Positions 3,605 to 14,712 of a stretch of DNA of 64,000 nt are shown piece after piece. Within the stretch, counting starts at the first letter, position 1; each line of letters opens with the position of its first letter. The stretch covers positions 5,518,001-5,582,000 of the forward strand of contig NC_003552.1 in assembly GCF_000007345.1 (NCBI RefSeq). The letters are read 5' to 3'. This stretch comes from Methanosarcina acetivorans C2A. Lineage in GTDB: Archaea; Halobacteriota; Methanosarcinia; Methanosarcinales; Methanosarcinaceae. The position numbers were made by a program, and so were the translations under genes. The notes beneath the pieces were generated by a model, which was not told where the DNA came from, searched no databases, and worked only from the letters and a program-made list of their open reading frames with translations.

Positions 3605-4480
3605 ATGTTTGAAGGAGCAATGCCTGCCCTGATCACTCCATTTACGAAAGACGACAGGATTGACAGGGAAGGCTTACGAAGGAATATAGCATTTGTGGAA
3701 GAGGGAGGGGTTTCAGGAATTGTGCCCTGTGGCACAACCGGAGAATCGGCAACCCTTTCCGCTTTGGAGCATGAAGAAGTTATCGACATTGCAGTGGAGT
3801 GCGCAAAGGTTCCTGTAGTTGCAGGAACAGGTTCAAACAACACAGGAGAAGCCCTCCAATTTACAAAACACGCCGCGGATGCGGGTGTCGACGGCGTACT
3901 TCTCATATCTCCCTATTACAATAAGCCTAATCCTGCAGGCTTGCTTGCACACTTCAAAAAGATTGCAGAAGCAGTGGATATCCCTATGATTCTCTACAAT
4001 GTCCCCTCCAGAACAGGGCAGGATATGCCTGTGGATGTTATCACCAAACTTGCAAAGGTAGAAAACATCGTGGGAATCAAAGAAGCCAGCGGGAGCGTCG
4101 GCAAAGTTTCTCAGATCCTGGAGCAGACTATAGATGACGATTTTGTGGTTCTTTCAGGAGAGGACGGGCTGACACTGCCGATTATTTCCGTGGGAGGTAG
4201 CGGAGTCATTTCAGTCGCTGCAAATATTGTGCCTGATAAAATGTCGGGAATGGTAAGTGCAGCCCTCAAGGGAGATTATGAGACTGCAAGAAAGATCCAT
4301 TTCGAGATAGCCCCTCTGATCCGCGCTCTTTTCCTTGAAACAAACCCGATCCCGGCCAAGAAAGCCGCAGAACTTATCGGACTTGCAAGCGGACACCTGA
4401 GGCTTCCCCTTGCCCCCATGAGCGATGCCAACCAGTTAAAGCTCGTAACTGAGCTCAAGAAACTGGGGGTAATGAAATGA
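3605..4480 (+). CDS. dapA: 4-hydroxy-tetrahydrodipicolinate synthase
   Basis: The protein has 291 residues, normal length for DapA. It condenses pyruvate with aspartate semialdehyde in the first committed step of lysine/diaminopimelate synthesis. Visible signatures are GTTGES (about 43-48), the tyrosine in YNVPSRTG (about 131-138) and the Schiff-base lysine in VGIKEASG (K159). It is a TIM-barrel aldolase-class enzyme of the cytosol. The stop codon overlaps the dapB start by four bases (ATGA), so the two are translationally coupled. The frame is intact. Confidence 0.97.
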   Translation: MFEGAMPALITPFTKDDRIDREGLRRNIAFVEEGGVSGIVPCGTTGESATLSALEHEEVIDIAVECAKVPVVAGTGSNNTGEALQFTKHAADAGVDGVLLISPYYNKPNPAGLLAHFKKIAEAVDIPMILYNVPSRTGQDMPVDVITKLAKVENIVGIKEASGSVGKVSQILEQTIDDDFVVLSGEDGLTLPIISVGGSGVISVAANIVPDKMSGMVSAALKGDYETARKIHFEIAPLIRALFLETNPIPAKKAAELIGLASGHLRLPLAPMSDANQLKLVTELKKLGVMK

Positions 4481-5268
4481 TTAATGCAGCAGTACTCGGA
4501 GCCTGCGGCAGAATGGGCTCCTTAATCATAGAAAACATTACCTGCTCCACCGACATGCAGCTCGTTGCTGCATTTGATATCGGGAGCATCGGAAAGGATG
4601 CAGGCGAATTTGCTCATGTCAGCAACCTGGGAATCCAGATTTCAGATGTCAAAGACCTTGAAACAGTCCTGAAAAAGACTCAGGCTGATGTCCTTATCGA
4701 CTTTACTGCAGCCGGGGCAACAATTGTAAACGCCCCCATTGCCGCAGGATGCGGAGTAAACCTTATAATAGGAACTACAGGCCTTACCCCCGAACAGCGT
4801 AAAGTAATTGATGAAACTATCCAGAAAAACAAGGTACGTGCAGTTATATCTCCGAACTACTCTGTAGGCGTTAATGTCTTTTTCAAGATAGTCAGAGAAG
4901 CTGCAAAGTATCTTTCGGACTATGACATCGAGATTATCGAAGCTCATCACAACCAGAAAAAAGACGCTCCGAGCGGGACTGCTCTTCGGGCAGCTGATGT
5001 GATCAGTGAAGCGCTGGGCGGTAAAGAATACGTATGCGGAAGGGAAGGGATCGCTCCCCGCGGGAAGGAAATCGGCATCCACGCCGTGCGCGGAGGGGAT
5101 ATCACCGGAGACCACACAGTACTCTTTGTAGGAAACTCCGAAAGAATCGAGATCCGGCATATGGCTCATTCCCGCCAGATCTTTGCCAAAGGCGCAGTCC
5201 GTGCAGCCGAATGGATCTGCAAGCAGGAACCTGGAATATATTCCATGGACGATGTACTCGGACTGTAA
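4477..5268 (+). CDS. dapB: 4-hydroxy-tetrahydrodipicolinate reductase
   Basis: A 263-residue enzyme that reduces the DapA product with NAD(P)H. The nucleotide-binding loop is GACGRMG (8-14). The family active-site signature EAHHNQKKDAPSGTA lies near residues 155-170 and carries the catalytic His-His and substrate-binding Lys. It starts within the dapA stop codon. A hairpin just after the stop probably ends the operon. No other dap genes are nearby. Confidence 0.97.
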   Translation: MINAAVLGACGRMGSLIIENITCSTDMQLVAAFDIGSIGKDAGEFAHVSNLGIQISDVKDLETVLKKTQADVLIDFTAAGATIVNAPIAAGCGVNLIIGTTGLTPEQRKVIDETIQKNKVRAVISPNYSVGVNVFFKIVREAAKYLSDYDIEIIEAHHNQKKDAPSGTALRAADVISEALGGKEYVCGREGIAPRGKEIGIHAVRGGDITGDHTVLFVGNSERIEIRHMAHSRQIFAKGAVRAAEWICKQEPGIYSMDDVLGL

Positions 5269-5440: not shown

Positions 5441-5457
5441 GCGAAAAGTATAAATTA
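5441..5457 (+). promoter_or_regulatory. BRE/TATA promoter for a putative small RNA
   Basis: GCGAAAAGTATAAATTA is a near-ideal archaeal BRE plus TATA box. Its centre lies about 26 bases before 5479, just upstream of the first stem of the folded region that follows. No plus-strand protein gene follows. Confidence 0.6.
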
Positions 5458-5477
5458 TAAAAGATAGGAAATAGGAT

Positions 5478-5665
5478 GGTGCTTGCTTGTAGAAGTCCAA
5501 CCCCTGAAGTCTGAAAAACACCATATCATCCCACAACACAGACATGGAAAACTGCCTGCAAGCAAGTATTCCGGTAAAGACCGTCCTTTTCGAAAGATGC
5601 AGGGCTCCGGAAAAACAGAAGTCAAAAGATCTCATGAACCAGACGGAGCCCTGCAAAACCTGAAA
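5478..5665 (+). ncRNA. Candidate structured small RNA with three hairpins
   Basis: Three stems follow one another. Stem 1 pairs CTTGCTTGTAG (5482-5492) with CTGCAAGCAAG (5556-5566). Stem 2 is CGGT-AAAG-ACCG (5572-5583). Stem 3 pairs TGCAGGGCTCCG (5598-5609) perfectly over 12 bp with CGGAGCCCTGCA (5644-5655). A strong promoter lies at the expected distance upstream. Open frames here show no protein-like sequence. It resembles none of the RNA families I know (not SRP, RNase P or tRNA). The 3' end is uncertain, as no clear U-run follows stem 3. Confidence 0.55.
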
Positions 5666-5712
5666 CATTTATTTCGCTGAAAACAACCTGAAAAAGATCT
5701 TAAAACCTCTCC

Positions 5713-6129
5713 TTAAACAGTTATCTCTCCTATGGAAAGGGGCTGACCTTCCGCATACTCAGAGTAGAGTTCTACCTCAACGGTATTCCAGGGCTGGATA
5801 TTTGTCTGGTAAGTTTCCGTAAACTCGTTGTCAAGAGTGAATTTGAACGTGTAATCCACAATCTCAAATCCTGGCACACGGAACCTGAAAGATTTGGCAT
5901 GGTAAACTTCCTCTCCTGCCGAAAGCTCGTATGTTTTGTCGAGTACGGAATTATTTTCCAGGTCATATATCTCTACCCGGAGTTCGTGAACTCCTGTATC
6001 GTGGTTTCGGACATGGAAAAGAGGAGTAGGAGGTCCTGCTATGAGATAGGGGATGACCACAAACAGCAACATGAATATCAATACTAGGAGAGAAACTCCA
6101 AGCATTAGCTTTCTTCTAAAACTTCTCAT
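5713..6129 (-). CDS. Membrane-anchored exported protein, unknown function
   Basis: A 138-residue protein with a basic N-terminus (MRSFRRK), one strong membrane helix (about 9-31, with VSLLVLIFMLLFVVIPYLIAG) and an outward beta-rich domain of about 105 residues. The repeated VHELRVEIYDLEN and TVEVELYSEY pattern suggests an immunoglobulin-like or beta-sandwich fold. It follows the 6151-6672 gene by 21 bases on the same strand and is probably co-transcribed with it. I do not recognise a named family. Confidence 0.6.
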   Translation of the reverse strand: MRSFRRKLMLGVSLLVLIFMLLFVVIPYLIAGPPTPLFHVRNHDTGVHELRVEIYDLENNSVLDKTYELSAGEEVYHAKSFRFRVPGFEIVDYTFKFTLDNEFTETYQTNIQPWNTVEVELYSEYAEGQPLSIGEITV

Positions 6130-6150
6130 AAGGATTTCACCCGATCCTGA

Positions 6151-6672
6151 TTACTGAATCTGAATTACTGAATCTGAATTACTCGCATTAATCAGCCTCA
6201 ACATTTCTTCCAGCTCTACGGTTTCACCTTTACTGACAGCTTTCCCGTCTTCGGTAAGGGAAAATTTACCCTGGAAACACCCACATACCACAAAGTGCTC
6301 CAGACCCAGATTTTTAGTAGCCTGATGCGTATCATCCACCAGGTAAAGCAGGACATCTTCCCCAGGTTCAAAAGAAGGTTCATCTTCCACATCCATTGTA
6401 AGGTTCCCGGCTGTACCACCCAGAACTCGAACAACAACCTCATTTGAAGAGAGAGGATTCTTTAGATATTCGTCCACTGAAATCACAACATCCCTGTAAA
6501 TAACCTCATTCGAATCCAGATCCTCCATGACATTTTTCGGCTGTCCCCCATCCGGGGTATTCCATCTTGCAGGCAGGATTTCTTTTACCGAGCCGATAAG
6601 GACCAGGTCGGAATTTTTAGCTAGCTCATCCGGGCTTAAGTATTCAACCAGATAGCTGATTCCAATGGTCAT
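6151..6672 (-). CDS. Conserved hypothetical surface-type protein lacking its N-terminus
   Basis: 173 residues, acidic, with no signal peptide. The pattern LSPDELAKNSDLVLIGSVKEIL, then VVISVDEYLKNP and GEDVLLYLVDD, looks like a small beta-barrel domain found in exported archaeal and bacterial proteins (inference). The frame stays open above the ATG (VEEFSASDAP before M) up to the stop codon of the preceding gene, with no start codon. The normal export signal may therefore have been lost. Its neighbours on both sides are exported proteins. Confidence 0.5.
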   Translation of the reverse strand: MTIGISYLVEYLSPDELAKNSDLVLIGSVKEILPARWNTPDGGQPKNVMEDLDSNEVIYRDVVISVDEYLKNPLSSNEVVVRVLGGTAGNLTMDVEDEPSFEPGEDVLLYLVDDTHQATKNLGLEHFVVCGCFQGKFSLTEDGKAVSKGETVELEEMLRLINASNSDSVIQIQ

Positions 6673-6702
6673 GGGGGCATCTGAAGCACTGAATTCTTCA
6701 AC

Positions 6703-7315
6703 TTATCCGTTCCCTGCAGGAAAACCGGGATCCGAAAAAGATGATTGGTTTTCAGGCTCCACGAAAATACTGACATTATTTGAACTAATCTGCCCTATCC
6801 AGTAGGGTTTTGTGATATCTTCCCCATCGGAAGTGTGGTACTCTGCAAAAAGAGTATATTTTCCCGGGGGAAGAGCCCAGCAACTTGTATCCTGATTTAT
6901 CTTCAGGGACTCTCCAGGCTGAAGCTCTATAAGAGCATCATCCATTAGTAACTCCCTTTGAAGCACCCCGCATATGTAAGGTACGTAAGAGCCGTTTGAA
7001 TCCACAAAAATAATGTCATAACTGATCTGTTCCATCAACGTCCACACATTTACGGGTGTACTACCGGCATTTTTCAGGACAAGTTCGATGTTAAAAATTT
7101 CCCCTTCAACCATCCGGGTTTTTCAGGGATTACCGTTAAATTCAGCTCCCCTTCCTGGGAAACAGGCTCTCTGTCCCCGATGCAGCCCGCTGCACATACA
7201 ATAAAGCATAAGATGACATAGAGAGCAAACCCATCGAATAGAAAGCTTGCTTTGCTTTTATCACGTTTACTGGATTTTCAGATTTTGAGAAAAATGCGCT
7301 TTTTCTTGCTTGCAT
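6703..7315 (-). pseudogene. Frameshifted lipoprotein gene
   Basis: The open part (6703-7113, 136 residues) is a beta-sandwich-like domain with VEGEIFNIELVLKNAGSTPV at its start, typical of extracellular archaeal proteins. Upstream, another frame reads a hydrophobic segment ending CFIVCAAGCIGDREP, a clear lipobox (AAGC), then ELNLTVIPEKP, which should run straight into VEGEIFN. A shift near 7113-7125 separates them. A second shift is needed to reach the only plausible start, the ATG at 7313-7315. It was probably a secreted lipoprotein like its neighbour and is now inactive. Confidence 0.65.
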
Positions 7316-13639: not shown

Positions 13640-13683
13640 TAGTCAACCTCTTTATACTCATGTTTTTACTTTTATTTCATTTG

Positions 13684-14712
13684 TGTTTTATCCCGAAATT
13701 ATTTCGCGCTAAATATGTCGGTTGTAATCCCTTATCTTTTGTGAAACTTAATGGAAAAAAGATACGTTGGATCATTGCTCAAAAATCGAAAGGTGAATCT
13801 ACCTCGACGATAGCTGAGATCCAGGGGATCTCAGCCCGTCGAGTTCAGCAGATCTACAAAGAATACGTTGAAACTGGTCAGCTTCCTCAAGTTGGCATTA
13901 ATCTTGGAAGACCAAAGAACCCCTTATCCTCCTCTGATCAGGAATTGATTGACCAAACTTACTCTGATTATAAGTTTGGAGCCTGTTACCTTGAGATTCT
14001 CATCGAAGGCAAATATAATCGTAAGATATCTCATAACAGAATCCATAACTACCTACTTAGCATGGACCTTGCCAAGGAAAACCGAAAAAAGAAACAGAGA
14101 AGAAAATGGTGTAGATACGAACGCGAACACAGCATGTCTGCTGCACACATCGATTGGCATGAGAATCCCCTGTTAGGACTTCAAGTCTGTGCCATTCTTG
14201 ATGATTCATCAAGAATGATAATTGCAGGTGGAGAGTACGTTCATTGCAACACGGAGAACACCATTAAAGTGATTGATGAACTTGTCAAAGAGTACTGGGA
14301 CATATACCCTTTAAGAGAGCTCATTATGGATCATGGAAGTGAATTCGGGGCTCACAGGATTAATAAGGATGGTTCATGGGATAGTGACTTTAAAAGATGC
14401 ATTGAAGAACTTGGAATCAAACCAATACTTGCAAGGGTAAGACATCCTCAGACAAACGGAAAAATAGAGAAATGGTTCGATACATATCAAAGGTTTAGAG
14501 GAGAGTTTGAATCATTTGAAGAATTCGTACAGTGGTATAACAAGAGGCCACATGGAGCTTTGAAACTTGAACAGTTAGAATCGCCACAGGAAGCATTCTG
14601 GAATAGATTACCAGTTGAGGCAAAGTTCAGAATAGGAGTGAGATTGTTTGGGTGGTGAAAACATGGACAAGAGGAAAAAAGTTTCAAAGCGAAATTATTT
14701 CAGGACAAAACA
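13684..14712 (+). mobile_element. Intact IS481-family-like insertion sequence
   Basis: A 1029-bp element. The left end is TGTTTTATCCCGAAATTATT (13684 on) and the right end, read inward, is TGTTTTGTCCTGAAATAATT; 20 of 24 terminal bases match. It is flanked by identical 15-bp direct repeats CTTTTATTTCATTTG (13669-13683 and 14713-14727), read as a target-site duplication. One complete transposase gene fills it. Perfect target repeats suggest a fairly recent insertion. Confidence 0.9.
13741..14658 (+). CDS. IS481-family-like transposase
   Basis: About 305 residues from the GTG at 13741. The N-terminal half has helix-turn-helix domains (STSTIAEIQGISARRVQQIY). The C-terminal half is an integrase-core DDE domain: D in AHIDWHENPL, D in LIMDHGSEFG and E in PQTNGKIEKW, followed by YNKRPHGAL. 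The frame is open back to an ATG at 13660, but that codon lies outside the left inverted repeat and so cannot be native. The gene is intact. Confidence 0.88.
   Translation: MKLNGKKIRWIIAQKSKGESTSTIAEIQGISARRVQQIYKEYVETGQLPQVGINLGRPKNPLSSSDQELIDQTYSDYKFGACYLEILIEGKYNRKISHNRIHNYLLSMDLAKENRKKKQRRKWCRYEREHSMSAAHIDWHENPLLGLQVCAILDDSSRMIIAGGEYVHCNTENTIKVIDELVKEYWDIYPLRELIMDHGSEFGAHRINKDGSWDSDFKRCIEELGIKPILARVRHPQTNGKIEKWFDTYQRFRGEFESFEEFVQWYNKRPHGALKLEQLESPQEAFWNRLPVEAKFRIGVRLFGW

Follow-up and report, generated by a model that had tools for sequence, protein, structure and literature searches.

What is encoded in the gap downstream of dapB in Methanosarcina acetivorans C2A? A preliminary description of this DNA had proposed a candidate new small RNA between dapB and a surface-protein gene: a BRE/TATA box about 26 bases ahead of a stretch folding into an 11-bp stem, a CGGT/ACCG hairpin and a 12-bp stem, in AT-rich surroundings, with no credible protein frame and no likeness to a known archaeal RNA family. 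The analysis here concerns this element, its setting in a 64,000-nucleotide stretch of DNA (the window), which spans positions 5518001-5582000 of contig C1, and related genomes. It bears on three questions: whether the element is an RNA gene; what controls it; and what its product might do.

Table 1. Features of the dapB-linked element and its neighbours, by window position
Feature	Position	Strand	Remarks
dapB	4477-5268		5' neighbour of the RNA element; TIGR00036
BRE-like element CGAAAAG	5442-5448	+	Read from sequence
TATA box TATAAAT	5449-5455	+	Columns invariant in 21 aligned genomes
AGGAAATAGG	5466-5475	+	Left arm of a palindromic operator (23 bp, predicted extent 5466-5488); kept in all Methanosarcina orthologues
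Predicted transcript	5478-5680	+	From TATA distance, fold (z -4.25) and the T tract after hairpin 2 in relatives
Hairpin 1	5482-5566	+	Outer arms 5482-5492 (CTTGCTTGTAG) and 5556-5566 (CTGCAAGCAAG); inner helix GTCTG 5509-5513 with CAGAC 5539-5543
Conserved apical motifs	5501-5517; 5525-5538	+	CCCCTGAAGTCTGAAAA; ATCATCCCACAACA; from alignments; proposed target- or protein-binding surface
CGGT/ACCG mini-hairpin	5572-5575; 5580-5583	+	In the fold of 5478-5680; probably incidental
Hairpin 2	5598-5655	+	Perfect 12-bp stem, arms 5598-5609 (TGCAGGGCTCCG) and 5644-5655 (CGGAGCCCTGCA); loop motif TCTCATGAACCA 5630-5641; clade-specific
T-rich tract TTTATTT	5668-5674	+	Likely termination region; TTTTTT in several relatives
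ORF, 138 aa	5713-6129	-	Convergent with the RNA element; no protein family found

An intergenic unit with its own promoter

The element lies between dapB and a convergent ORF (Table 1). Of the two neighbours first proposed, dapB stands, whereas no family was found for the supposed surface-protein gene. Local G+C around the element is 0.28-0.48, as the AT-rich setting described earlier would have it. A mobile or repeated element is ruled out, as the sequence is present in a single copy in the M. acetivorans genome.

On the minus strand, three consecutive short ORFs (138, 173, and 136 aa) occupy positions 5713-7113. Two were tested, neither with a Pfam match, and the last two (173 and 136 aa) may represent one gene, broken near 6700. 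Elsewhere in the window, a 332-aa plus-strand ORF (13660-14658) resembles by eye an IS-type transposase with a DDE-like integrase core.

The element has its own conserved intergenic promoter (BRE/TATA, 5442-5455), placed as originally noted. A spacing of 26-27 nt from the TATA box centre predicts a start at about 5478-5480. Alignments of orthologues reveal conserved columns at the TATA box and at AGGAAATAGGAT around the expected start, and no conservation upstream of the TATA box. A scan for a bacterial-type promoter and terminator found none, as expected in an archaeon. At the other end, hairpin 2 is followed by a T tract in relatives. For copies of the M. acetivorans-like clade, the T-rich tract of Table 1 is the probable end of the unit, slightly beyond position 5665, where the preliminary description had placed its end.

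Structure, conservation, and coding potential

The interval 5441-5665 folds with an energy of -63.6 kcal/mol, compared with -41.5 ± 4.1 in dinucleotide shuffles (z = -5.4); not one of the 200 shuffles folded as well. The opposite strand folds less well (z = -2.5, dinucleotide shuffles). The core is a hairpin about 105 nt long, with two conserved motifs in its apical loop, which read CCCTGAARTCT.AAA and ATCATCCCACAA across the alignments; TGCTTGCTTG and its partner strand are conserved as well. The outer arms of hairpin 1 form 10 of 11 possible pairs and the arms of hairpin 2 form 12 of 12; both long stems of the original description also withstand comparison between genomes. The mini-hairpin placed between them is present in the fold, and is not conserved in the alignment of relatives.

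Do these stems vary as paired RNA should? Among aligned orthologues, 85.8% of the hairpin 1 cells pair. Its covariation score is 0.173, as against 0.136 ± 0.013 in shuffles, 1 of 500 reaching it; with the pairing slid, the score stays at or below 0.093. In addition, 11 cells are altered on both sides (2 of 500 shuffles). Most pairs scarcely vary, and pairs changed on both sides are no more numerous than in shuffles. The inner helix differs by clade: GUCUG/CAGAC here, CCUGC/GCAGG in L022, and CCUGG/CCAGG in L025. Hairpin 2, found in the M. acetivorans-like clade and a few others, is kept through both-sided changes in L024 (GCCCG/CGGGC) and L011 (GGAC/GTCC), the pairing having been read by eye. 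Compensatory changes thus lend both stems support that is real but modest.

A plain DNA search of 111 genomes of the family found the element in most Methanosarcina. A covariance model of the core (E below 1e-6) matches 20 of 30 Methanosarcina genomes and three of four from genus g5, with the proviso that a match is guaranteed for the sequences from which the model was built; 22 of these had first been found by plain DNA similarity or nhmmer. The model has no convincing match in the rest of the family, beyond Methanosarcina and g5. By tblastn, dapB is directly upstream of the element in most loci. In two relatives (L039 and L040), the same convergent gene directly follows dapB and the element is missing from the gap; these represent clean absences.

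In one genome (G081; L014, 1575-2935), an insertion whose 414-aa ORF is TnpB-like by eye divides the element in two, so the RNA there is probably broken. Four genomes (G085, G089, G090, and G092; loci L338-L344) carry longer paralogous copies, in which the loop has an extra pairing, CCTATT/AATAGG. There are up to three or four of these per genome, none adjoining dapB. Two (in G085 and G090) are near P-II genes (PF00543), and others are near transposase-like ORFs.

Close relatives differ by single-base indels within the core, and therefore share no reading frame. The only frame at the expected start is ATGGTGCTTGCTTGTAGAAGTCCAACCCCTGAAGTCTGA, of 12 codons, which is present in M. acetivorans-like copies and is not conserved; the start codon is lost in most orthologues. 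The earlier judgement that no protein frame is credible agrees with this, and the test then proposed, a comparison of related genomes, came out in favour of the RNA: 23 genomes have kept the element, its indels break reading frames, and compensatory changes lend modest support. The element is thus very probably a conserved non-coding RNA gene. What survives of the initial proposal is an RNA gene with its own promoter; its middle hairpin does not.

A promoter resembling those of nitrogen operons

A search of relatives with the barkeri-like version revealed other promoters with a TATA box plus TAGGAAATAGG. These form a 23-bp imperfect palindrome, AGGAAATAGGWTNCYGTNTTCCT. In the M. acetivorans genome, 11 sites lie within three mismatches of the searched pattern, compared with one for a reversed control pattern. 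Eight sites have at most two mismatches: two before nifH of the vnf/anf cluster; one at a P-II/nitrogenase operon; two at ABC-transporter operons; and three with no obvious ORF directly downstream. Family matches support the nifH (TIGR01287) and binding-protein (PF01497) assignments at operator sites. In relatives, the same motif precedes nifH, P-II, ABC, S-layer, and dimethylamine corrinoid (MtbC) genes.

The left arm alone tells a similar story. Exact copies of AGGAAATAGG occur at 39 sites in the M. acetivorans genome. A TATA box stands 15-20 nt upstream of eight of these, where chance would give 0.011 per site (P ~9e-9). The eight are seven full 23-bp palindromes and the RNA promoter. At the seven other sites the spacing from TATA to AGGAAATAGG is 16-17 nt, and five of them are at alternative-nitrogenase, P-II, or metal-type ABC operons.

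The RNA promoter therefore shares the TATA box, spacing, and left arm of the nitrogenase/P-II operator set, but its right arm is degenerate. This arm overlaps the first RNA bases and has two or three mismatches to the searched pattern, with M. acetivorans the worst (three), so binding by the putative regulator is uncertain.

Which regulator might this be? GGTA-N6-TACC is the NrpRI operator (PMC3177094). NrpR sites of Methanosarcina occupy the same position relative to TATA as the half operator of the element, which differs in having GGAA for GGTA and a degenerate right half (TGGT in M. acetivorans). The glnA promoter of one relative (G076) has GGTA-AAAGGA-TACC at the same place relative to TATA, and the barkeri-like RNA copies read GGAA-ATAGGA-TACT. 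From these two sequences, NrpR or a related nitrogen regulator would be the likeliest controller of the RNA gene. A metal (Mo) regulator is an alternative, considered because the operator is found at alternative nitrogenases and ABC operons. Overall, regulation of the nitrogen type is somewhat favoured. As for co-occurrence with alternative nitrogenase, all eight genomes with AnfG/VnfG carry the RNA, 12 others carry the RNA without them, a point against nitrogen control, and relatedness confounds the test.

Across Methanosarcina, an operator set (L148, L150, L151, L153, L154, and L189-L218) has AGGAAATAGGWTNCYGTNTTCCT at fixed TATA spacing. The genes behind it make up a putative regulon, with an operator that is either an extension of the published NrpR site or distinct from it. 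Full TATA-plus-23-bp operators without an obvious downstream ORF are found at L149 (C1:1468504, +), L152 (1935266, -), and L155 (2046259, -); additional small RNAs or short ORFs belonging to this regulon may be expressed from these promoters. L149 sits between ABC genes that by eye resemble those of metal and molybdate transporters. The operator also lies upstream of a protein of about 312 aa (MLTVETSGIKGITSFTTYD...) in relatives (L196:394-1329, also L136 and L146). A homologue is beside the vnf/anf genes of M. acetivorans (L346:11813-12757), and the protein has no Pfam or NCBIfam family match.

Candidate role and competing explanations

These features suggest a model in which the element is a trans-acting, nitrogen-regulated intergenic sRNA that works like M. 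mazei sRNA154 but is distinct from it; the case for the complete model is evenly poised. Under plentiful fixed nitrogen, the RNA gene would be repressed by the regulator of the nitrogenase/P-II/ABC operons, likeliest NrpR. Nitrogen limitation would relieve repression, yielding a transcript of about 200 nt that would run between positions ~5478 and ~5680, or a shorter one in genomes that lack hairpin 2. The apical loop would then pair in trans with target mRNAs and so change how stable they are or how well they are translated, in the manner of M. mazei sRNA154. Each step of this model, from transcription and its control to the mRNA targets, is a prediction. Given a real RNA, trans base-pairing has about an even chance.

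sRNA154 regulates nitrogen fixation and is expressed only under nitrogen limitation. Its promoter has an NrpR-type operator (PMC3177094), and it stabilises some nitrogen mRNAs while masking the ribosome-binding site of another (PMC5867862; PMC11456600). It also contains a leaderless 20-aa ORF at nucleotides 4-66 (PMC11456600). Like sRNA154, the element is an intergenic stem-loop sRNA of Methanosarcina with a proposed trans action by loop pairing. Identity is rejected on three grounds: the locus (MM3337/MM3338 for sRNA154, dapB-linked in nearly all orthologues for the element); the operator (GGTA-N6-TACC as opposed to GGAA-N6-TAYT/TGGT); and the 20-aa ORF, which the element does not have.

Other M. 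mazei RNAs invite comparison. sRNA162/sRNA171 (about 190 nt) is likewise intergenic, with stem-loops and its own TATA/BRE. However, it lies between MM2441 (an ArsR gene) and MM2442, has three stem-loops and a variable single-stranded linker, and pairs with a neighbouring 5' UTR. Identity is rejected here too, as both locus and architecture differ, the neighbours of the element being dapB and the family-less convergent ORF. sRNA41 masks ribosome-binding sites in ACDS mRNAs; it too is an intergenic Methanosarcina sRNA, and the C-rich loop of the element could in principle act similarly. sRNA41 is reduced under nitrogen limitation (PMC5867862), the opposite of what the promoter of the element suggests. 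The element is probably not sRNA41 for this reason, a distinction drawn from description and not from sequence.

Is the RNA new? With respect to Rfam it is, in line with the initial remark that no known archaeal family matches: no Rfam 15 family scores above its gathering threshold in the window, the region has nothing beyond chance hits when E is relaxed to 10, and the best local hit is far below its own cut-off. A tRNA search found none, and no C box was seen by eye on the plus strand. The M. mazei catalogue is a separate matter. It lists 242 sRNA candidates (Jager et al. 2009), and 21% of the intergenic ones are conserved in M. acetivorans and M. barkeri (PMC5867862), so the chance that an orthologue is already among them, leaving the family-level description alone as new, is not far short of even; the lack of a matching family in Rfam 15 speaks against it. 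This concerns novelty only, and is compatible with the nitrogen-regulated sRNA model.

A more substantive rival accepts a real conserved sRNA, but regards the likeness of its promoter to nitrogen operons as coincidental or a relic. The RNA would act in other conditions, for example by masking ribosome-binding sites as sRNA41 does or by binding protein. The unconserved right operator arm is consistent with this, as is the fact that most RNA-bearing genomes have no alternative nitrogenase; moreover, the C-rich loop motif ATCATCCC could pair with G-rich ribosome-binding sites. Against it, an exact 10-mer stands at exact TATA spacing and is kept in orthologues (TATA alone has a chance of about 0.011 per site), paralogues are near P-II genes, and no conserved ribosome-binding-site match for the loop was found. 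On balance this rival is unlikely.

Target searches bear on any model that invokes pairing. The loop complement TTGTGGGATGAT, sought with at most one mismatch in five genomes with flanks and clustering, gave no conserved start-codon match, which counts against the nitrogen-regulated sRNA model. The second loop motif has about 50-70 matches per genome and so no discrimination. Ranking 155 leaders by duplex energy did not single out nitrogen genes; the output looked unreliable, and nothing rests on it.

An improbable reading is that the structure is spurious, or belongs to the DNA itself as a protein-binding palindrome, terminator, or relic, with no separate RNA. In its favour, arm TTGCTTGCAAGCAA of barkeri-like copies reads as a palindrome in the DNA, but the TATA box is conserved at the right distance, as are unpaired loop motifs; the modest compensatory changes and the single copy in M. 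acetivorans also argue for an RNA. Slightly less probable still is a small mRNA or dual-function RNA encoding a short peptide (as proposed for sRNA154): M. acetivorans has its 12-aa frame at the expected start, and 21% of unannotated translated sORFs in M. mazei are in former sRNAs (PMC11456600), but the ATG is missing in most orthologues (GGATACTGC, GGATATTGC) and the indels break every frame.

The nitrogen-regulated sRNA model thus concerns an archaeal intergenic sRNA, a known kind of molecule, with an interesting and testable link to nitrogen. In its broadest form, which is tentative and rather doubtful, methanogens would have, in addition to sRNA154, another family of regulatory RNA under nitrogen control, represented by the element and conserved in Methanosarcina and a further genus. 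Its regulon would be that of the vanadium- and iron-only nitrogenases, P-II, and metal uptake, whose mRNAs it would tune through the conserved apical loop, and the palindromic operator of this regulon would be distinct from the NrpR site or extend it.

Roles are known for very few archaeal sRNAs; in the literature covered, only sRNA154 has been established as regulating nitrogen fixation positively. Should the regulatory link fail, what is left is still a structured RNA family that Rfam does not contain. A conserved RNA tied to the alternative-nitrogenase/P-II operator set is a candidate that can be tested directly, in an archaeon amenable to genetics, and could throw light on post-transcriptional coordination of nitrogenases in Methanosarcina.
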